From an uncultured Actinomycetes bacterium (GTDB lineage: Bacteria > Actinomycetota > CADDZG01 > WHSQ01), in assembly GCA_937863385.1 (NCBI GenBank), contig CALMBW010000017.1, positions 1 to 53,762 of the forward strand: 53,762 nucleotides of DNA, read 5' to 3'. The position numbers and the translations under genes were made by a program. Below are positions 1-9,543 of this stretch, in pieces. Under the pieces are notes generated by a model. That model did no database searches. It saw nothing but the letters and a program-made list of their open reading frames with translations, and was not told where the DNA came from. The first letter of the stretch is position 1, and every line of letters begins with the position of its first letter.

Positions 1-231
1 CATTGGAGCCGCGGGGGGCCCACCGACTTCGACAACCTCATCCCACTGTGCTCAAGACATCACGATCTGGTCCACGAACATGGATGGAGCGTGTTCAGAG
101 GGACCAACGGAACCGTGATCTGGTATCGGCCCGACGGCCGTGAATATCTGCCGGGCCCGGAACCACCCGATCCGTATGCACCCCAAGAGACACGAGAAGA
201 TCTGTGGGCGGTACTGGGATCGAACCAGTGA
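1..231 (+). CDS. HNH endonuclease (DUF222/13E12-type), C-terminal fragment
   Basis: The frame is open from the first base, so only about the last 76 residues are present. It begins HWSRGGPTDFDNLIPLCSRHH and continues DLVHEHGW, the usual HNH core in which His and Asn coordinate the metal and a Cys/His pair stabilises the fold. Such proteins with an N-terminal DUF222 domain are multicopy in actinobacteria and often lie near mobile DNA. The last nine codons (LWAVLGSNQ, then stop) are read from the tRNA-Val fragment at 204-251, so the C-terminus was probably replaced when that sequence arrived. Nuclease activity is inferred from the family only. Confidence 0.8.
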   Translation, partial: HWSRGGPTDFDNLIPLCSRHHDLVHEHGWSVFRGTNGTVIWYRPDGREYLPGPEPPDPYAPQETREDLWAVLGSNQ

Positions 232-251
232 CCCCTGCCGTGTGAAGGCAG
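204..251 (-). repeat. Left copy of 48-bp direct repeat: truncated tRNA-Val 3' part (attL/attR-like)
   Basis: Read on the minus strand, it carries the anticodon arm (loop TTCACAC), variable loop, T arm and acceptor 3' strand of tRNA-Val. It lacks the D arm and the 5' acceptor strand, so it cannot fold into a tRNA. All 48 bases are identical to 1886-1933. Confidence 0.85.
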
Positions 252-574
252 CGACTGAAGAGAACTCCACCATCGGCCGCTGGCTGCACCGCACCGCGAG
301 TCACAGCAGCCATGCGTTTGGTGCTGTTAGCGCGCCGTCACGTTGGGACGTGGAACAAGAAACGAGAATCAAGACTCCAACTAGTAGCTCGATGCTCTTC
401 TTTCGCGGAGGTCGGACCACACCACACGGACGAACGGCTTGACCGCTTCGTCGGGGAGTCACCCATCGTCAATCTCGCGTGCCTAGTCATTATCGAGGGC
501 GTGAACCCCCGAGTTGAGCCATGGTGTGACAGAAGAACCGTCCGTACCCTCCTAGAAACATCTAGGGGGGAACA
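252..574. other. Gene-free stretch inside the putative element
   Basis: I see no convincing coding region here. A small perfect stem-loop (cctaga / aaca loop / tctagg, 551-566) lies just before the purine-rich ribosome-binding site of the next gene and could affect its translation. Nothing else is recognisable. Confidence 0.5.
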
Positions 575-1079
575 GTGCGGAAACGAACATCTACTTGCTT
601 GGTGCTTTGTCTTGTGATTGTTGCTATGGCCGCGTCAGTCGTCCCATCAGGAGCTGAATGAAGCGGTCTGCTGCTTCAAGGACGGAAAAGGCGACTGCGA
701 AGGAGCTGAGACCGCCTGTAAGGTCGGCGGGGATGTGGGTGTGTCCCGCACATTCGATGCCAAAGCCGGTCAGGTGTACAGCGCAATTGCATGGGCTAAG
801 ATCACAGAAGTATCGCAGGCAGCACCAGGTATGTTTCGAGCACGTCTCACCATTCATGCAGTGAATTCGAGCGGTGCCCTGGGACTGATCAACGGCAGCG
901 AATGCAACGCCACATTAGCAGTTCAAGCTGGTGAATTCACACCCATTGAAATTCCCGCCTGCGAGATGCCCCCCGGCACCCGATACGTGCGGGTCAACAT
1001 CCGGGCGAACAATCAAAAGAATGACACTGCCAGCGGAACGGTCCTGTTCAGCGCTTTGACGTTCATCCGCTTGGCATAG
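575..1079 (+). pseudogene. Exported protein gene interrupted by a frameshift
   Basis: From GTG 575, behind the purine-rich tract aggggggaa, a typical signal peptide is read: VRKRTSTCLVLCLVIVAMAA followed by SVVPSGAE. It ends at TGA 659-661. In the next frame a well-formed 140-residue secreted-type domain continues from about 651 (ELNEAVCCFKDGKGDCEG...) to 1079, with six cysteines and a beta-rich composition. A single +1 shift near 640-660 joins the two halves into one protein of about 165 residues. There is no slippery site of a known programmed type, so an indel mutation or a sequence error is likelier than recoding. A TTG start at 618 is open but has no ribosome-binding site and cuts the signal peptide. 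The function is unknown. Confidence 0.6.
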
Positions 1080-1147
1080 GGCGGCGACGTAGGAGATGAC
1101 GCTCCTCTGGCGAACCTTCACTCAGGATCGTTCACAGGAGGCTGAGT

Positions 1148-1738
1148 TTGAGTAGGGAAAGGGTACAGGCATCTGGAGGCGCAGCGATTGCCCTGTTCTC
1201 GCTGCTCTCTTTCCTCTGGGCCCCACCGGCCGTTGCCTCGCCGTCTTCTAGTAGCCCTCGAGTTTCCGGATATCACTACGTGGCAGCGCGTTGGGTGGTC
1301 GAACGTTCAGACGGGCGATTCCTGCTTTTCTGGGCCTCAGTGACCCAACCCACGGCGGCCGACGAAAGCGTCACACCTGAGGCAACAATCGGGAAGGGGA
1401 AATGCCAACCTGAGACATTGGACGGAACGGTCGTTGACTGTCATCTGATAAGTGGCAAACAGTTGACCTCAAGAGAATTCAGCTTCTCGATGACACCGGG
1501 CCTCACCTCAGCCCAGTTACGACTCCGCTCTGCCGGACGACGCCAAGTGGTGGAGTGGGAGGGTACAGGACTCATTGACGCCTCCCCCATTCTCGCTCCG
1601 TGTGGGACGGACCAGGCCATCGGCGAGGCCTCACATAGGAGCGCTTTGGTCAGCGGGCGCATCTTTGGTCAGTCCCTAGAGGATGGAGACACGTCAACGG
1701 GAAGCGAGATGTCCGAGGTTTTCGCCCTCTGCCTTTAG
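1148..1738 (+). CDS. Exported protein of unknown function
   Basis: This 196-residue protein starts at TTG 1148, behind caggaggctgag. An N-terminal signal peptide (hydrophobic stretch IALFSLLSFLWA, then PPAVAS) is followed by a Ser-rich stretch and a domain of about 160 residues with four Cys (KCQPE, VDCHL, APCGT and the penultimate residue). I do not recognise the family. It is the second exported-protein gene in the tRNA-bounded segment and runs in the same direction as the frameshifted gene 70 bp upstream, so the two may be co-transcribed. Confidence 0.65.
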   Translation: MSRERVQASGGAAIALFSLLSFLWAPPAVASPSSSSPRVSGYHYVAARWVVERSDGRFLLFWASVTQPTAADESVTPEATIGKGKCQPETLDGTVVDCHLISGKQLTSREFSFSMTPGLTSAQLRLRSAGRRQVVEWEGTGLIDASPILAPCGTDQAIGEASHRSALVSGRIFGQSLEDGDTSTGSEMSEVFALCL

Positions 1739-1885
1739 AGTTGCCCGCGACCTCCGAACCTCACAAACTGAACTCGAAATCGCGGCCCCGGGCTTCGAAC
1801 ACCCTACGAAACGTCAACTCCCTCCCAGTCAGAGGCCGGGAGCCCATCTACCTCCATCACCGCTCCAGGAACAACGAAAAGATCG

Positions 1886-1933
1886 GTGGGCGGTACTGGG
1901 ATCGAACCAGTGACCCCTGCCGTGTGAAGGCAG
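1886..1933 (-). repeat. Right copy of 48-bp direct repeat (within the tRNA-Val gene)
   Basis: This is identical over 48 bases to 204-251. It covers the anticodon stem through to the 3' end of the intact tRNA-Val. The match continues imperfectly for about 10 bases beyond the tRNA end (gaagatc versus aaagatc), so homology extends slightly outside the gene. Confidence 0.85.
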
Positions 1934-1958
1934 TGCTCTCCCGCTGAGCTAACCGCCC
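1887..1958 (-). tRNA. tRNA-Val (anticodon CAC)
   Basis: The reverse complement begins GGGCGGTTAGCTCAGCGGGA and ends TTCGATCCCAGTACCGCCC plus A. The acceptor strands GGGCGGT/ACCGCCC pair over 7 bp. The anticodon stem CTGCC/GGCAG encloses the loop TTCACAC, giving anticodon CAC (valine). The T loop is TTCGATC. The 3' CCA is not encoded. Its 3' part is duplicated 1.7 kb away, marking this gene as an integration site. Confidence 0.95.
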
Positions 1959-1976
1959 GGGACGGGCAATCCTACT

Positions 1977-2903
1977 TCAGCGCCGTAAGCGGGAAAGATA
2001 GAGAGGCATCGGTGCGCCTTCGCTGGTGGTGAAGATGCGCGTGCCCGTTAGGTCATAGGCGACGGCCTCGCGTTGCATGACCGGGGGCAGGTTGATCTCC
2101 ACACCACCGGCATCGAACGCGTCTTGCAGCGAGCCGGTGATCTCGAACTCGTACGCACCGGCGTAGGTAGACAGCACCAGGAACCTGCCGTCGGAGGAGA
2201 TGTCTGCTCCGGTCGGACCCGGGAGGAGTCCGGGGGCTGGAACGGGGACCACCTTTTCGAGCTCGATGGTCGTGCCCGGCTCCAACGGGGCCCTAGCGAC
2301 GTAAGCCACCGGTGACGCTCCCTTGGTGATCACGTAGACATCGCCGGTCTTGGGATGAACGAACGCGCTCTCGGCGTCACGCGGCCCCCTCGGATACGAG
2401 AGCCTGATCACTTCGGCGTCGGAGATCACCGAATCTCCGCGCGTCGGCTCGGGCACTCTCACGACAGATATCTCCGGCCGGATGCGGGTGTTGTCACCGA
2501 TGTCGGCGACATAGAGATACGAGGTGTCAGGATCGGGGCCCGGCCCCCGGGCGATGTCTTCCCAGTCGACGGGTTCGATGCCGCTCAAGGTGACCCGGCC
2601 GCACGCCTCTCCCCGGAACGTCAAGCAATAGAGAACGGGTGCGTCGCCCGAATCGTTGTGCGCCCACAAGATGCCGGGATCCACGCTCGAAGCCACGATT
2701 CCGCTGCTCTCGGTGAGCTCGGCGATGCCCACCCTGGCCACCAGACGAGCGTGACCGAACACACGGGGTTCGGTCACGGAGGGAGCGCGTTTGTCGCCGG
2801 GCGCGTCGGACCCGCCGCCGGGGCGGGAGGTCCAGGCTGCGATCCCCCAGCCCAACGCAGCCGCTGCGAGTATCACGAGGCTCATCATCAACATACGTTT
2901 CAT
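1977..2903 (-). CDS. Membrane-anchored beta-propeller-like exported protein
   Basis: The protein has about 308 residues from ATG 2903. An upstream ATG at 2951 would add 16 unconvincing residues before the hydrophobic stretch. The N-terminal helix MKRMLMMSLVILAAAALGW is a signal anchor, followed by a Gly/Pro/Asp linker and a soluble domain with SSGIVAS, LWAHNDSGD and VADIGDNTRIRPE. These motifs recur in proteins with esterase-like or phytase-like six-bladed propellers that bind calcium. The gene is divergent from the patatin gene. The substrate is unknown, and an enzymatic role is inferred only from fold similarity. Confidence 0.6.
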   Translation of the reverse strand: MKRMLMMSLVILAAAALGWGIAAWTSRPGGGSDAPGDKRAPSVTEPRVFGHARLVARVGIAELTESSGIVASSVDPGILWAHNDSGDAPVLYCLTFRGEACGRVTLSGIEPVDWEDIARGPGPDPDTSYLYVADIGDNTRIRPEISVVRVPEPTRGDSVISDAEVIRLSYPRGPRDAESAFVHPKTGDVYVITKGASPVAYVARAPLEPGTTIELEKVVPVPAPGLLPGPTGADISSDGRFLVLSTYAGAYEFEITGSLQDAFDAGGVEINLPPVMQREAVAYDLTGTRIFTTSEGAPMPLYLSRLRR

Positions 2904-2941
2904 CTCGGCCCGATACACCCTTGGACGTGCGCCATAGCCGA

Positions 2942-2947
2942 TAGTGT
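2942..2947 (+). promoter_or_regulatory. -10-like TAGTGT of a leaderless promoter (patatin gene)
   Basis: TAGTGT ends 6 nt before the GTG at 2954, with no Shine-Dalgarno sequence in between. This is the spacing expected when transcription starts at the start codon. Confidence 0.45.
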
Positions 2948-2953
2948 GCATCG

Positions 2954-4216
2954 GTGATGGGCACAGTCATCCACCTTTCAAAGGGCAGGACGCGCGACAA
3001 GGGAGCCGCGGAATCGCGGTCGTCCTCTGGACGCACGGCTCTGGTGCTCGGTGGTGGCGGCATCACGGGCGCCGCCTACCATCTGGGCGTGCTCACGGCG
3101 ATGAACGCCATGAGCGAGAGCGCCTCGGTGAACGACTTCGACATCTACGTCGGGACCTCCGCCGGGTCGGTGATCGCTGCGTGCCTGGCGAACCGGATCA
3201 CACCCGAAGACCTGATGCTGGCCAATCTCGGCCATGAGAGGGCCACGATCCCTGCCATCAGTGCGGCCGAGATCATGGCACCGGACCGCCGGGGCATAGC
3301 CAAGTCGCTGGTTCGATGGCCATTCGGGGTTCTGGGGGCAGCGAGGCGCTACATCGGCCATCCCTTCACGACCTCCGTGGTCGACGGCTTGGGAGCGGTA
3401 GCCGAGGGTCTGCCGCAAGGCTTCTACACGACCGACGGGATCGAGCGCTATCTGAGCGAGTTGTTGAGCTCCCCCGGGCGCAGCAACCACTTCCGGGACA
3501 CGCGCGGACGGCTGTTCATCACGGCGACCAACTTCGACACCGCCGAACGACGAGTGTTCGGTAGCGACCGCAACACCTCGGTGAAGATCTCAGACGCAGC
3601 CGCCGCTTCCACGGCGATCCCGCTGCTTTACGCACCCCGGCAGATCGGCGACACCGTCTACATGGACGGTGGCCTTCGCTCCAGCACGAACATCGACGTC
3701 GCCATCGCGCATGGGGCGAAGCTGATCGTCGTGGTGAACCCATTGGTCCCTTACGTGCATGACATCAGGCACATGCTCCCCACCGCTACGGGGCTCCCGT
3801 CCCGCCACCTGTCACAGAAGGGCTTCCCACACATCGCAGCCCAAACGTTCCGGATCATGGCCGAAGCTCAGGTCGAGAAGGAGCTCGAGGTCATCCGGCA
3901 CGCTCATCCCGACGTCGACATAATCCTCATCGAGCCTCGAAGGGACGACGAGCACCTCTTCGTGTTCAACCTGATGGACTACGGGTCGCGCGAACGGATC
4001 GCCCGCCACGCCTTTGAAAGTGTGGCGATCGACCTCGTTACCAGGTTCCCCGAGTACAAGAAGGTGCTGGGGCGCCACGGCATCAAGATCAACCGCGACC
4101 AGCTGATCGACCAGCTCCAGAGCATCGTGGAGGGTTCCGAGCCTCGCTTCATCGAGGCGGTCGCCCATCCCGAAGGCGACCTCATCCCTCGACCCCACCC
4201 CGGCTCCCCCGCCTGA
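2954..4216 (+). CDS. Patatin-like phospholipase
   Basis: This 420-residue protein has a patatin domain over roughly residues 25-260. The oxyanion-hole motif GGGGITG follows RTALVL, the nucleophile elbow is GTSAG (YVGTSAGSV), and the catalytic Asp lies in DGGLRSS, giving the Ser-Asp dyad. It should hydrolyse acyl esters of phospholipids or related lipids. There is no signal peptide, so it is probably cytosolic or membrane-associated. The last 120 residues are a helical extension without a recognised motif. GTG 2954 and ATG 2957 are adjacent starts and cannot be separated. Confidence 0.9.
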   Translation: MMGTVIHLSKGRTRDKGAAESRSSSGRTALVLGGGGITGAAYHLGVLTAMNAMSESASVNDFDIYVGTSAGSVIAACLANRITPEDLMLANLGHERATIPAISAAEIMAPDRRGIAKSLVRWPFGVLGAARRYIGHPFTTSVVDGLGAVAEGLPQGFYTTDGIERYLSELLSSPGRSNHFRDTRGRLFITATNFDTAERRVFGSDRNTSVKISDAAAASTAIPLLYAPRQIGDTVYMDGGLRSSTNIDVAIAHGAKLIVVVNPLVPYVHDIRHMLPTATGLPSRHLSQKGFPHIAAQTFRIMAEAQVEKELEVIRHAHPDVDIILIEPRRDDEHLFVFNLMDYGSRERIARHAFESVAIDLVTRFPEYKKVLGRHGIKINRDQLIDQLQSIVEGSEPRFIEAVAHPEGDLIPRPHPGSPA

Positions 4217-4410
4217 CGTTCGCTGGGTCGAGCGGCTCGGACTATCCCCTTGGGGGTCCATCCGGACTAGGCCCGTAGCACCTGGGTCATCCTGGAAATA
4301 GACCGTGAAGTCCCTTCCGCGGGCGACCTTCGACTGAGACCCTGACCCTCGTACCCGTATCGGCGGAGACGGGCAACTGGCGTATGGGCAACGGAAGGGA
4401 GATCGCGGGC

Positions 4411-6543
4411 ATGAGAAAGATGAGCATCCTGCTGACGATGTGTGTCGTCGGCACCATGATCGGGATGCTGCAGGCTGGGGCGGCTCTGCCCGGCCAACCG
4501 ACCACGGTGGCCAGAGACGGCGACCACTATTGGGACTTCGAGTTCGGTGGCGCGCCCGGGTGGGTGGGCTGCGGCGGTCCAGGAGGCGCTTGTGTATATA
4601 CACACATGGGTCCCGGTTCTCCCCCTGGAGGCTCGGGCTCGCTGAGTTTCGACAGTGACGGCAACGGATCCACCCTCTCGGATGAGGGTGTTGCCGCTTT
4701 GGTGCGCTTCGGCGGAACGCGCCTCGACGACATCATCGATCTCTCGTACTCCTCACACAACCGGAACCTGTCGACGCACACCACCCCGGCATACGCACCC
4801 CCGGTGAGCAGCACGATCCTTGAGCCCGGCGACCACGCAGAGCTTCACCTCAACATCGACACGGACGGCGACGGGGACTACGACGAGACGATCGTCTTTG
4901 ACCCCGAGGAGAACTTCGCTACGCAGAACCCGTCGATGAACCCGTCCCCGGTCCTTCCGGCCGATGGAGACGCCAACCGCGGCTGGTTCCGTTGGGACCC
5001 GTTAGCACCTTCAGCTCTTTGGTACGAGGAAGGCACACCGGCCACAACCTTCACCTGGAACCAGTACCTCAACGACAACTTCGGTGCCAAGCTGGCACCA
5101 GGGTCGACATCCGAGTTCCATGGCGGCGGCGAGGGACGGTTCGTGCACGGCCACGTCGACAACTACCGGTTCGGCATCTACCCGGACACACGGCGCTACG
5201 ACTTCGAGGCCGAGGTCACCCCGGGTGCGGACCGCTACCACATCCACGATCGTTCCACGAGCTCCCCCGCAACCACCTACGGCGAGCCGATAATCGTGTC
5301 GAAGGATGGCGTCAACCAAACGACCGACGATAGCCGCCAAGCCGACTGGGCTCCAAGTGGCAACATGATGGTCTACTCCAGCAACTCGGAGAACCTCAGC
5401 CCAAGCTCGCCGTGGGAGGACGTGTTCCGTTCGACGGCTCCGGGTGTGAACCAGACGGTCAGCATCTGTGACAACAACGTCTGCACTAGCGGCACTCAAC
5501 CGAACGACAACAGCTACCAAGGCGCTACGAGTGACGGCGACAACGTTGCCTTCCGTTCCGACGCCAGCAACCTGGTGCCGGGTGACACGAATGGCGTTAG
5601 CGACATCTTCCTGCGCAACATGACAACGGGTGATGTCGAGATGGTGAGTGTGAGCACGGCCGGGACACAGGGCAACAAGTGGGGCAACGATCCTTCGATA
5701 TCCGCCGACGGCCGTTACGTCGTGTGGCTATCCAAGGCCGACAACCTCGTCCCTGGAGACACCAACGACGACTGGGATGTGTTCCTTAGGGACACGGTGG
5801 CAGACACGACCGAGCGGATCCTGCGCAACGACGGCAGCCAGATCAACTTCAACGAAAAGGACGCAGAGATCTCTGCCGACGGCAACTGGGTCACCTTCTC
5901 GTCCTACGACAGTTTGATCACGGGTGCCGGCAACGACACCAACGATCGTCGTGACGTGTTCGTCTGGAACCGTGTCACCAAGCAATCGACCCTAGTCAGT
6001 CGCAACGGTGCAACTCAAGGTGACGGTGGATCGTTCGATCCCTCGATCTCCGATCTCGGTGACTACGTCGCTTTCGTGACCAACGCCAGCAACTTGGGCG
6101 GCGACACAGACGGCGACACTCCGACGATCTATCTGGTTCGCACCGACGGTTCGACGGCCCCTGAGCGGGTCAACGTAAAGAGCGACGACGTAACCCAGAG
6201 CAACCAGGGTGCATATAGGCCTTCACTCGGCTACAGCAGTGGTCCCACGATGTACATCGCATTCGAGTCGGAGGCGACGAACCTCGGCTACCTGAACGAT
6301 GACAACCAGGACCGCGACGTGTTTGTCAGGCGGCTCGACCTGAGTTCGCCGAGGCCGAATGCGAACAGCATCACGGTGCCTTACACCTCCGGTAATGCTC
6401 CGGCGTTCCGAGCCGACATCGTGGCCAGCGGGAACCTCGCCTACGAGGCCCACGCGACGAACCTGCTGGCAGGAGATACGAACGAGCGCAAGGACATCTT
6501 CTTCGTGCCCGTTCCGATCAACATCCCGACTTCTCTCCCCTAA
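4411..6543 (+). CDS. Large exported protein: lectin-like N-domain plus TolB/WD40-like propeller
   Basis: The protein has about 710 residues from ATG 4411, behind gaagggaga. The signal peptide is MRKMSILLTMCVVGTMIGML followed by QAGAA. Residues about 25-270 form a beta-rich domain with a DTDGDGDYDE calcium-type loop, ending HVDNYRFG...RRYDFE. Residues about 290-710 hold repeats of the type NLVPGDTNGVSDIFLR / DPSISADGRYVVW, as in TolB-like WD40 propellers. The same two domains occur in the 1421-residue protein at 11952-16217. No catalytic motif is visible. I infer a cell-surface or extracellular binding role. Confidence 0.75.
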   Translation: MRKMSILLTMCVVGTMIGMLQAGAALPGQPTTVARDGDHYWDFEFGGAPGWVGCGGPGGACVYTHMGPGSPPGGSGSLSFDSDGNGSTLSDEGVAALVRFGGTRLDDIIDLSYSSHNRNLSTHTTPAYAPPVSSTILEPGDHAELHLNIDTDGDGDYDETIVFDPEENFATQNPSMNPSPVLPADGDANRGWFRWDPLAPSALWYEEGTPATTFTWNQYLNDNFGAKLAPGSTSEFHGGGEGRFVHGHVDNYRFGIYPDTRRYDFEAEVTPGADRYHIHDRSTSSPATTYGEPIIVSKDGVNQTTDDSRQADWAPSGNMMVYSSNSENLSPSSPWEDVFRSTAPGVNQTVSICDNNVCTSGTQPNDNSYQGATSDGDNVAFRSDASNLVPGDTNGVSDIFLRNMTTGDVEMVSVSTAGTQGNKWGNDPSISADGRYVVWLSKADNLVPGDTNDDWDVFLRDTVADTTERILRNDGSQINFNEKDAEISADGNWVTFSSYDSLITGAGNDTNDRRDVFVWNRVTKQSTLVSRNGATQGDGGSFDPSISDLGDYVAFVTNASNLGGDTDGDTPTIYLVRTDGSTAPERVNVKSDDVTQSNQGAYRPSLGYSSGPTMYIAFESEATNLGYLNDDNQDRDVFVRRLDLSSPRPNANSITVPYTSGNAPAFRADIVASGNLAYEAHATNLLAGDTNERKDIFFVPVPINIPTSLP

Positions 6544-6609: not shown

Positions 6610-9543
6610 TTACCTGCCGCTGGTAACTTTCGTCGCGCCCTCACGAACTGCCGCAACCGCCTTCTTCTTCGGCTCTTTCGCCGGCTTGCTTCGAGCCCTG
6701 CCTTTAAGGATGTCCTTGAGAAACATGCCGGTGTAGGAACCGGAGACCTCGGACACCTCCTCGGGGGTTCCTAACGCCACGATGGTCCCGCCGCCGGAGC
6801 CACCTTCGGGGCCGAGATCGATGATGTGATCCGCCGTCTTGATGACGTCCAGATTGTGCTCGATGACCACAACCGTGTTGCCGTTGTCCACCAAACGATG
6901 AAGGACGCCCAACAGTTTTCGGATGTCCTCGAAATGGAGCCCAGTGGTCGGCTCGTCCAGGATATAGAGGGTTCTCCCGGTCGATCGCTTGGCCAACTCG
7001 GTAGAGAGCTTCACTCGCTGTGCTTCCCCACCGGAAAGCGTAGGAGCCGGTTGGCCGAGCTTGATGTAGCCAAGCCCGACATCGTTCAGCGTTTCCATAT
7101 GGCGAGCTATGGGTGGGATGGCGGAGAAGAAGTCACAGGCCTCTTCGACGCTCATCTCGAGCACGTCGGCGATGTTCTTGCCCTTGTATCTGACCTCTAG
7201 GGTTTCCCTGTTATAGCGCTTGCCCTTGCAGACCTCGCAAGGGACGTAGACATCCGGCAAGAAGTGCATCTCGATCTTGATGGTTCCATCGCCGGCACAC
7301 GCCTCGCAGCGACCGCCCTTAACGTTGAACGAGAAGCGTCCTTGCTGGTAACCGCGGCGCCTCGCGTCGGGAGTCTTGGCGAACAACTTCCGCACATGGT
7401 CGAAAACCCCTGTATAGGTGGCGGGGTTAGAGCGCGGTGTACGGCCGATGGGGCTCTGGTCGATATCGATGACCTTGTCGATCCACTGCAGGCCTTCGAT
7501 GCTCTTGTGCTTGCCCGGCACCAGACGAGCGTTGCGGTTCAACGACTGGTGAGCGGCACGATAGAGGATCTCGTTCACCAAAGTGGACTTGCCCGATCCT
7601 GAAACGCCAGTCACGGCAGTGAACATCCCCAGCGGGAAATCGACGTCGATCTCCTGAAGGTTGTGTTGACGGGCTCCTCGGACCGAGATCTCGCCGCGAT
7701 CCTCGGGCTTCCTGCGGGCAGCGGGTGTCGGAATCTCTCGCCGCCCTGCGAGGTAGTCCCCTGTTATCGAGCGGCGTTGCTTCGTGAGTCCGCTGCGCGG
7801 ACCCGTGTAGACGACCTCGCCGCCATGCTCTCCTGCGCCCGGACCGATATCTACGATCCAATCGGCAGTGTTGATGGTGTCCTCGTCGTGTTCGACCACG
7901 ATCAAGGTGTTGCCGAGGTTCCGGAGCCGCACCAGCGTCTCGATCAACCGGCGGTTATCCCGCTGATGAAGCCCGATCGACGGTTCGTCCAAAACGTAGA
8001 GAACCCCGACGAGGCCGGAGCCGATCTGGGTGGCGAGTCTGATGCGTTGAGCCTCACCTCCGGCCAGAGTTGCCGAGTTCCGCGCCAGCGTTAGGTAATC
8101 GAGTCCCACGTCCAGCAAGAACCCGAGACGAGCATGGATCTCCTTGAGGACTCGCTCGCCGATGGTCATCTCGCGTTCGTTCAGCTCTAGTTTGCGCAAG
8201 AAGGCATCGGTATCTCCGATGCTCATCGAAGTGAGCTCGTGGATGTTTATCCCACCGAGGCGGACCGCCAAAGATTCCGCGCGAAGGCGCGCTCCCCCGC
8301 ATTGAGGGCAGGCGACCTCGCGGAAGTACTGCTCGTAGCGTTCGCGCGCATAGTCGGAATCCGTCTCGGAATGCCTGCGCTCGAGCCAGGTAACCGCACC
8401 CTCAAACACCGTCCAATAGGCGCGGATGCGGTTGTATCGGTTCTTGTATCGGACATGGATCTCGGTCTCCTCATCGCCGTACATGATGAGATCCCGAACC
8501 TTCTTGGGAAGTTTCTTGTAAGGAGTATCGAGCGAGAACTTGAACGTCTTGGCGGCAGACTCCAGGAGTCTGTCGAAGTACTCGAGGCTCCTGCCGCTCC
8601 AGGGGGCGATCGCACCCTGCCGGATGGTGAGATCGGGGTCCGGGATGACGAGCTCCTCATCTACCTCCAGGTGCGTGCCCAGCCCATCACATCGTTCGCA
8701 TGCACCGTACGGAGAGTTGAACGAGAAATTCCTGGGCGCGAGCTCGTCGAAACTGATCCCACAATTGAGGCACGCGAAGTTCTGGCTGAAGTAGATGTCC
8801 TCGCCTTCGCTGTCCACCAACTCGATAGCGGCGGTACCTTCGGCGAGTTTCAATGCGGTCTCGATCGAATCGTTCAGGCGCGACGCCAAGCCTTCTTTCA
8901 TGACGAGTCTGTCGACCACCACATCGATGTCGTGCTGGTGGTAACGATCGAGCCGGATCTTCTCGGTCAGCTCCTTCACTTCGCCGTTGACCCGAGCACG
9001 CACGAAGCCCCGTCGAGCCAGGTCTTCGAAGAGGCTGGTGAACTCACCTTTGCGCGACCTGACGATCGGAGCGAGTACCTGGAACCTGGTGCCGTCCGGC
9101 AGTTCGAGAACCTGGTCGACGATCTGCTCTGGTGTCTGACGAGCGACTGGGCTGCCACAGTTGTGACAGTGTGGACGACCGACCCTTGCGAACAGCAACC
9201 GGAGATAGTCATAGATCTCGGTGATGGTGCCTACGGTCGAGCGCGGGTTGCGTGGCGCCGACTTCTGATCGATCGAGATCGCAGGTGACAGACCCTCGAT
9301 GAAATCCACGTCGGGTTTGTCCATCTGGCCCAAGAATTGCCGGGCATAGGAGCTGAGGGACTCGACATAGCGGCGCTGTCCCTCGGCGTAGATGGTGTCG
9401 AAGGCCAGAGACGACTTACCCGACCCAGAAATGCCCGTGAAAACGATCAGGGCGTCCCGGGGCAGGTCTAGCGAGACATTCTTGAGGTTGTGCTCGCGCG
9501 CTCCCCGAACAACGAGGCGCCCGTCCGCTGAGATCTCTGGCAT
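6610..9543 (-). CDS. uvrA: UvrA, excinuclease ABC subunit A
   Basis: The protein has about 977 residues. It is the damage-recognition ATPase of nucleotide excision repair, which loads UvrB. It has two ABC ATPase modules with Walker A motifs GISGSGKSS and GVSGSGKST, signature LSGGEAQR and Walker B LYILDEP, plus zinc-finger CxxC pairs (CHNCG, CLNCG, CERC, CEAC). A Lys/Ala-rich tail of about 28 residues follows the conserved end. I prefer ATG 9543 because aaggtgg lies 7 nt upstream. GTG 9549 would sit almost on that site. A perfect palindrome lies directly upstream. uvrB is 9.5 kb away on the same strand. Confidence 0.98.

Follow-up and report, generated by a model that had tools for sequence, protein, structure and literature searches.

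A tRNA-Val(CAC) gene and a displaced copy of its 3' half enclose a short stretch of DNA with genes for predicted exported proteins. This raises the question of how the stretch came to lie there and what kind of element it is, or once was. The geometry of the repeat, the composition of the enclosed DNA, and comparison with other tRNA-Val genes suggest that it is probably an att-bounded remnant, similar to a cis-mobilizable element (CIME), of a larger integrative element that has lost its integrase.

The repeat and the segment it bounds

The window analyzed here, 53,762 nt in length, is the entire contig C17, one of the 27 contigs of a 2.77-Mb genome. The only tRNA that ARAGORN detects in it is tRNA-Val(CAC), on the minus strand. 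The features around this gene are as follows.

1-231, plus strand: C-terminal end of an HNH-type repeat gene, with a Pfam HNH match; the frame continues into the tRNA fragment
183-203: 21 bp beyond the fragment, similar by alignment to 1865-1885 at and past the 3' end of the intact tRNA
204-251, minus strand: displaced 3' half of tRNA-Val(CAC), the distal att copy, identical to 1886-1933 at 48 of 48 positions by sequence comparison
252-1884: inserted segment of 1,633 bp, GC 0.579, in which composition was determined and integrase searches found none
575-1079, plus strand: interrupted exported-protein gene, from a reading of the frames; signal peptide in frame 575-661, body in another frame to 1079
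1148-1738, plus strand: exported-protein gene, 196 aa, with no Pfam, NCBIfam or PHROG match
1885-1958, minus strand: intact tRNA-Val(CAC) (ARAGORN); its 3' half is the tRNA-side att copy
1886-1933, minus strand: att core within the intact tRNA, from the repeat comparison
1922-1928, minus strand: anticodon loop read from the sequence, the presumed crossover region; the copy in the fragment is at 240-246
1977-2951, minus strand: gene for a 324-aa protein on the 5' side of the tRNA, host-like in composition; its homologue in genome G005 adjoins a homologue of the 1148-1738 gene
2954-4216, plus strand: patatin-like phospholipase gene; it adjoins tRNA-Val(CAC) in genomes G003 and G004 and is near it in G007

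The repeat has the order, orientation and boundary that insertion by a tyrosine integrase would produce. An earlier note on this DNA described a perfect 48-bp repeat shared by an intact tRNA-Val(CAC) and a truncated copy, and both the tRNA call and the full identity of the two copies, which have the same orientation, bear this out. Within the tRNA, the repeat begins at the base of the anticodon stem on its 5' side and stops close to the 3' end, and a longer version of 69 bp (183-251 and 1865-1933) has 91% identity. The longest string common to the tRNA and positions 1-1880 is 48, while the maximum in 200 block shuffles was 12; in a control with the part of the window beyond position 2000, the longest string matching the tRNA was 10 on the plus strand and 11 on the minus strand. 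Relative to the intact gene the fragment is on the 3' side, which is where an old 3' half would come to lie if an insert displaced it and rebuilt the tRNA with its own. Read from the sequence, this order and orientation, together with a start point at the anticodon stem-loop, are the pattern of tyrosine integrase insertion. The crossover itself was presumably in the anticodon loop, a placement based on a boundary that was compared with those of other fragments. Williams is said to have described anticodon-loop crossover in 2002 as a property of a subgroup of tyrosine integrases.

The segment between the repeats is foreign-like in composition. Its GC content is lower than that of all 252 overlapping windows of the same size in the rest of the contig (mean 0.620, SD 0.017, minimum 0.582). 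The GC3 values of the cargo genes are 0.60 and 0.62, compared to 0.78 for the gene for the 324-aa protein, 0.83 for the patatin gene, and 0.75 for uvrA.

The cargo was previously described as two exported-protein genes. This holds for the gene at 1148-1738 and has to be modified for 575-1079, since the signal peptide and the body are in different frames. The signal-peptide frame begins with GTG and closes at a stop codon, and its ribosome site was judged by eye. As far as the frames tell, the break may be a true interruption, an assembly error, or recoding through a programmed frameshift. The body of the first cargo protein gives a beta-sandwich model of modest confidence (mean pLDDT 68.2, from a single sequence), and among the top structural hits of this model are carbohydrate-binding modules (2zez, E 2e-5, TM about 0.5) as well as a phage tail-spike. 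The predicted fold thus weakly resembles carbohydrate-binding modules. The structure model of the 196-aa protein is too poor for use (mean pLDDT 47.7). Neither cargo gene has a match in Pfam, PHROG or NCBIfam.

The segment had been reported to carry no integrase, and the searches agree: none was found in the cargo genes, in five further open reading frames, or with a profile built from nine integrases and run over all six frames. The five further frames have no Pfam or PHROG match, and no integrase remnant was seen among them; the profile, which covers one recombinase type, also found no remnant in any frame of the segment. The absence of any integrase trace is a point against reading the segment as a remnant, in which an integrase would have been lost.

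The native locus and the occurrence of the cargo

The tRNA-Val(CAC) gene looks to be at its native place, because its neighbors (the patatin gene, uvrA, and a flanking block) are kept in relatives. The nearest genomes compared belong to other genera of the same family. In G003, like G005 a member of this family, the flanking block, tRNA-Val and the patatin gene follow one another as they do here, and uvrA is found near tRNA-Val(CAC) in G004, G007, G013 and G006. Between the patatin gene and uvrA the window encodes a 719-aa protein (4384-6543) with repeated motifs that by eye are rich in aspartate and asparagine; in G004 the patatin gene and uvrA are directly adjacent.

The window starts inside the multi-copy HNH-type gene, so the left flank has been cut off by the assembly. 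The other part of this gene is presumably DUF222. A single complete copy is present on C2; the other copies are pieces at contig ends, with 5' ends on C21, C19 and C7 and 3' ends on C17, C16 and C24. One complete copy, three 5' pieces and three 3' pieces point to at least four copies, at which the assembly breaks. In G003, a block approximately 14 kb to the 3' side of tRNA-Val(CAC) matches C21:11.4-20 kb in an order that fits a join between C21 and the window. This order suggests that C21 and C17 form a pair, and the resulting sequence of C21, HNH gene, fragment, cargo, tRNA and patatin gene agrees with G003.

Three of the five relatives read at this locus show no tRNA fragment. On the 3' side of tRNA-Val(CAC), no fragment was seen in the 10.5 kb read in G003, the 10.8 kb read in G007, or the 4.7 kb read in G006. 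G004 has a decayed fragment 1.46 kb from tRNA-Val(CAC), and G013 has a doubtful one at 0.8 kb that extends into the D-arm with a gap and was kept in the counts below.

The cargo was found in few of the genomes searched. Among 24 genomes of the class, the body of the first cargo gene occurs in one, the window's own, and the second cargo gene occurs in two, the window's own and G005, with a weak partial match on C9 of the window's genome. The cargo is absent from the tRNA-Val(CAC) loci read in five relatives (G003, G004, G006, G007 and G013). No further case of it with att ends was found in the 24 class genomes or, by short peptide patterns, in viral contigs; these patterns, which reach close relatives only, gave no cargo match of any kind in the viral contigs. 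A search of plasmids for the second cargo gene and a search of phages for the body of the first returned none. When genome contigs were scanned with a pattern from the alignment of the second gene, two loci were found, apparently the two known from G005. The segment together with both repeats in relatives, which the earlier note took as the mark of vertical descent, was looked for in the 24 class genomes and was not seen.

Elements and fragments at other tRNA-Val genes

The same genome contains a complete-looking integrative element in another tRNA-Val gene. A second 3' fragment of tRNA-Val (C27:15714-15753) lies 11.5 kb from an intact tRNA-Val(TAC), and the element between them (C27:15714-27375, L038) is 11.6 kb in length. 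It encodes a tyrosine integrase (PF00589, E 8.7e-27), with a reading frame that overlaps the tRNA in antisense orientation, an excisionase-family protein (TIGR01764), type II restriction-modification genes (an XhoI-like nuclease and a DNA methylase), and an IrrE-like peptidase with an HTH protein. Two genes match the candidate defense model PDC-M48B, and one of them is a metallo-beta-lactamase by Pfam. The integrase of this element was considered as a direct helper for the tRNA-Val(CAC) segment and is not an obvious one; the TAC and CAC anticodon loops differ by eye at three of seven positions.

Related integrases may act at tRNA-Val(CAC) as well. In G006, a CAC-type 3' fragment of tRNA-Val (L043:7460-7503) ends a broken integrase gene 38% related to that of C27, which hints that this integrase group may use both isoacceptors, CAC and TAC. 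The fragment differs from G006's own tRNA-Val(CAC) in the anticodon stem, so the support from G006 is weaker, and for the same reason a different host may have been the source of the element.

The att core is also found in phage sequences. Twelve IMG/VR contigs contain a 30-bp core exactly, and nine of these have no intact tRNA-Val. An integrase gene lies within 1 kb of the core in at least six of the twelve (L098, L102, L105, L106, L107 and L108), a lower bound since only chosen open frames were checked for one. The earlier note had proposed looking elsewhere for the same core together with an integrase, and at least six of these phage contigs have both.

Short segments between a tRNA-Val gene and a 3' fragment were surveyed in the phylum (396 genomes) and, among the matches listed, in another class (399 genomes). 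Close pairs on the same strand were picked by eye, and 16 stretches were read in addition to the segments from the window's own class. Four pairs of intact tRNA-Val genes (L111, L112, L116 and L117) and a single intact tRNA-Val in a tRNA cluster (L113) were dropped from the counts. Nine further same-strand pairs from the phylum, seven of them in genus g39, and at least one from the other class stand outside the counts; all four g39 pairs that were read are intact genes. This left 18 segments that were scanned, 14 running from an intact tRNA-Val to a 3' fragment and four from fragment to fragment.

Many of the picked segments are short, and an integrase was detected in few of them. Ten of the 14 tRNA-Val/fragment segments are shorter than 3 kb, a figure that is no census of segment sizes since short contigs favor short spacings, and in 11 of the 14 no integrase was detected by the nine-integrase profile, which covers one recombinase type. 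The three with an integrase are the complete C27 element, G407 and G641; among the fragment-to-fragment segments one of four has an integrase (G076). In the 2.3-kb segment of G641 the integrase match is broken over two frames, as would be seen at a stage of decay. G612, a later case from the genus of G346, has its segment at the tRNA that is also the site in G346; this segment is 5.5 kb long and includes an integrase. The fragments read number 26, from 20 genomes; judged by eye, 24 of them, all but those of G013 and G641, have their start at the anticodon loop or stem.

Exported proteins are encoded at some of these sites. The 2.3-kb segment of G346 contains a single gene, for an exported FG-GAP/collagen-like protein, and this genome has tandem 3' fragments of tRNA-Val(TAC) with genes for exported proteins of the FG-GAP type (L158:2102-2175, 4481-4525 and 8073-8116). 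Within the genus of G346, FG-GAP genes are located 3' of the same tRNA in G648, G741 and G758, where the fragment is absent in the stretch read, so exported cargo near a tRNA is not always bounded by att sites. In G697 only 206 bp separate an intact tRNA-Val(GAC) from a 3' fragment whose start is at the anticodon loop (L125:1202-1481), so that the att-bounded unit is almost empty. In G609, two tandem 3' fragments follow tRNA-Val(GAC) with spacings of 2.75 and 4.5 kb (L119:1966-9329), and no integrase was found in these segments by the same profile. Overall, the claim that the window's segment arose by integration targeted to a tRNA is well supported by the order and orientation of the fragment, by the boundary it has in common with most other fragments, and by the integrase-bearing element in the same genome and the phage contigs.

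Origin of the segment and its relation to known elements

The proposed remnant can be explained by one insertion and a later deletion. An integrative element would have entered tRNA-Val(CAC) by means of a tyrosine integrase, with strand exchange in the anticodon loop. The tRNA would have been made whole again by the copy of the 3' half that the element brought along, and the original half would have been displaced to the far end (204-251). A later deletion would then have removed the integrase and other mobility genes and kept both att copies, so that some 1.6 kb remained, with both exported-protein genes, of which one is now interrupted. Such a remnant would be immobile alone, and an integrase acting in trans could excise or join it. 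In this model we infer the integrase type, the sequence of steps, the gene loss and the ancestor. A very small satellite and a deletion remnant had both been suggested before. The remnant is favored over the satellite because one cargo gene is interrupted, because cargo with att ends was found nowhere else that was searched, and because the 2.3-kb segment of G641 has a broken integrase.

The arrangement in G005 conflicts with a single insertion. The gene at 1977-2951 and the second cargo gene are found in the same two genomes out of the 24 of the class. In G005 (L058:9335-10983), the homologues of 1148-1738 and 1977-2951 are convergent and overlap with no tRNA between them, whereas in the window (1148-2951) the same two genes are convergent but flank a tRNA. 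A single integration cannot put a tRNA between two such neighbors. Either the two genes were joined twice, or a wider stretch with the tRNA at its center was exchanged, or the G005 pair reflects an older arrangement combined with a separate event for the fragment. The last of these would make the two genes old inherited neighbors, with the fragment left by an independent, more recent insertion into this tRNA that was then lost; their shared occurrence, their adjoining positions in G005 and their convergent orientation there as in the window speak for it. However, their GC3 values are unlike in the window (0.62 and 0.78) and alike in G005 (0.765 and 0.782), a contrast that would favor separate histories of the two genes in the window's genome. 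The fully identical fragment also seems too fresh for an old arrangement, and the patatin gene is directly beside the tRNA in G003 and G004. The family of the 1977-2951 gene is patchy, occurring in 41 of 396 genomes of the phylum, and at none of the 18 other loci returned for it in the phylum is the cargo gene within about 1.5 kb. An origin as old neighbors is considered unlikely.

The short segments at other tRNA-Val genes raise the possibility that the segment never had an integrase and is a self-contained mini-cassette moved in trans by the integrases of resident elements or phages. The small size of most of the picked segments and the low number with a detected integrase are consistent with this, as are the single-gene unit of G346 and the tandem fragments in G346 and G609. 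On the other hand, the sample is biased towards short spacings by short contigs and by picking pairs by eye, the cargo was not found again with att ends, and one cargo gene is interrupted. In addition, the G641 segment appears to have decayed from a form with an integrase, and G612 has an integrase-bearing segment at the tRNA of G346. A mini-cassette is thus quite improbable here, and it is doubtful to a slightly greater degree that Actinomycetota tRNA-Val genes in general host very small recombinase-free cargo cassettes, often with exported-protein genes, that move only in trans. If part of the tRNA region had been duplicated in tandem, with no integrase involved, this would account for similarity that extends about 20 bp beyond the 3' end of the tRNA, where an anchored comparison matches 14 of 20 bases and none of 20,000 random placements is equal. 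However, in a free local alignment the similarity of the flanks is weak, with 212 of 5,000 random pairs as good, and fragments across the phylum begin at the same point of the anticodon stem-loop. A duplication is the least probable of these explanations, and very unlikely.

The remnant can be compared with several known kinds of elements. The usual examples of CIMEs are far larger than a 1.6-kb segment. As defined in the passages of PMC5704250 that treat them, CIMEs are matched in that the segment keeps both att ends (attL and attR) and lies in the 3' end of a tRNA gene; integration and transfer genes were not found in the segment, and their former presence would be part of the remnant model. 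A CIME also descends from an ICE or IME and can be mobilized in cis, and for the segment both would be putative. The segment also has features of the islands catalogued by Islander, which according to the relevant passages of PMC4383910 filters on an integrase and a length of 2 to 200 kb. It has a regenerated tRNA with a displaced 3' fragment downstream on the same replicon and in the same orientation, and the fragment is clear of Pfam domains: the HNH match covers residues 1-25 (window 1-75), and the open frames across the fragment (140-439 on the plus strand and 95-313 on the minus strand) have no Pfam match. It differs in having no integrase inside and in its length, with 1,682 bp from the start of one repeat copy to the start of the other, and by the filters in those passages Islander would reject it twice.

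Likeness to other mobile elements is partial. The C27 element has the same target family and the same anticodon-loop boundary as the segment; unlike the segment, it carries an integrase, an excisionase-family protein and type II restriction-modification genes, and its tRNA has a different anticodon loop. Phage satellites such as tycheposons and phage-inducible chromosomal islands (PICIs) carry genes for integrases or for packaging, and some of them sit at tRNA genes. The segment resembles these elements, which are named in the passages of PMC11389934 on satellites, in being small and in bearing cargo, but no integrase and no packaging or hijacking gene was seen in it.

On this reading the locus is a new example of an already known kind of island, the att-bounded remnant. 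If recombinase-free cassettes do exist at tRNA-Val genes, they would have been overlooked, because island finders such as Islander, as its filters are described, require an integrase and a length of at least 2 kb. This locus provides a precisely bounded case in which an island targeted to a tRNA has shrunk while its ends stayed in place. Seen alongside the other short segments, it suggests that tRNA-Val genes of the phylum often host very small islands lacking an integrase, which filters of the kind described for Islander would drop.
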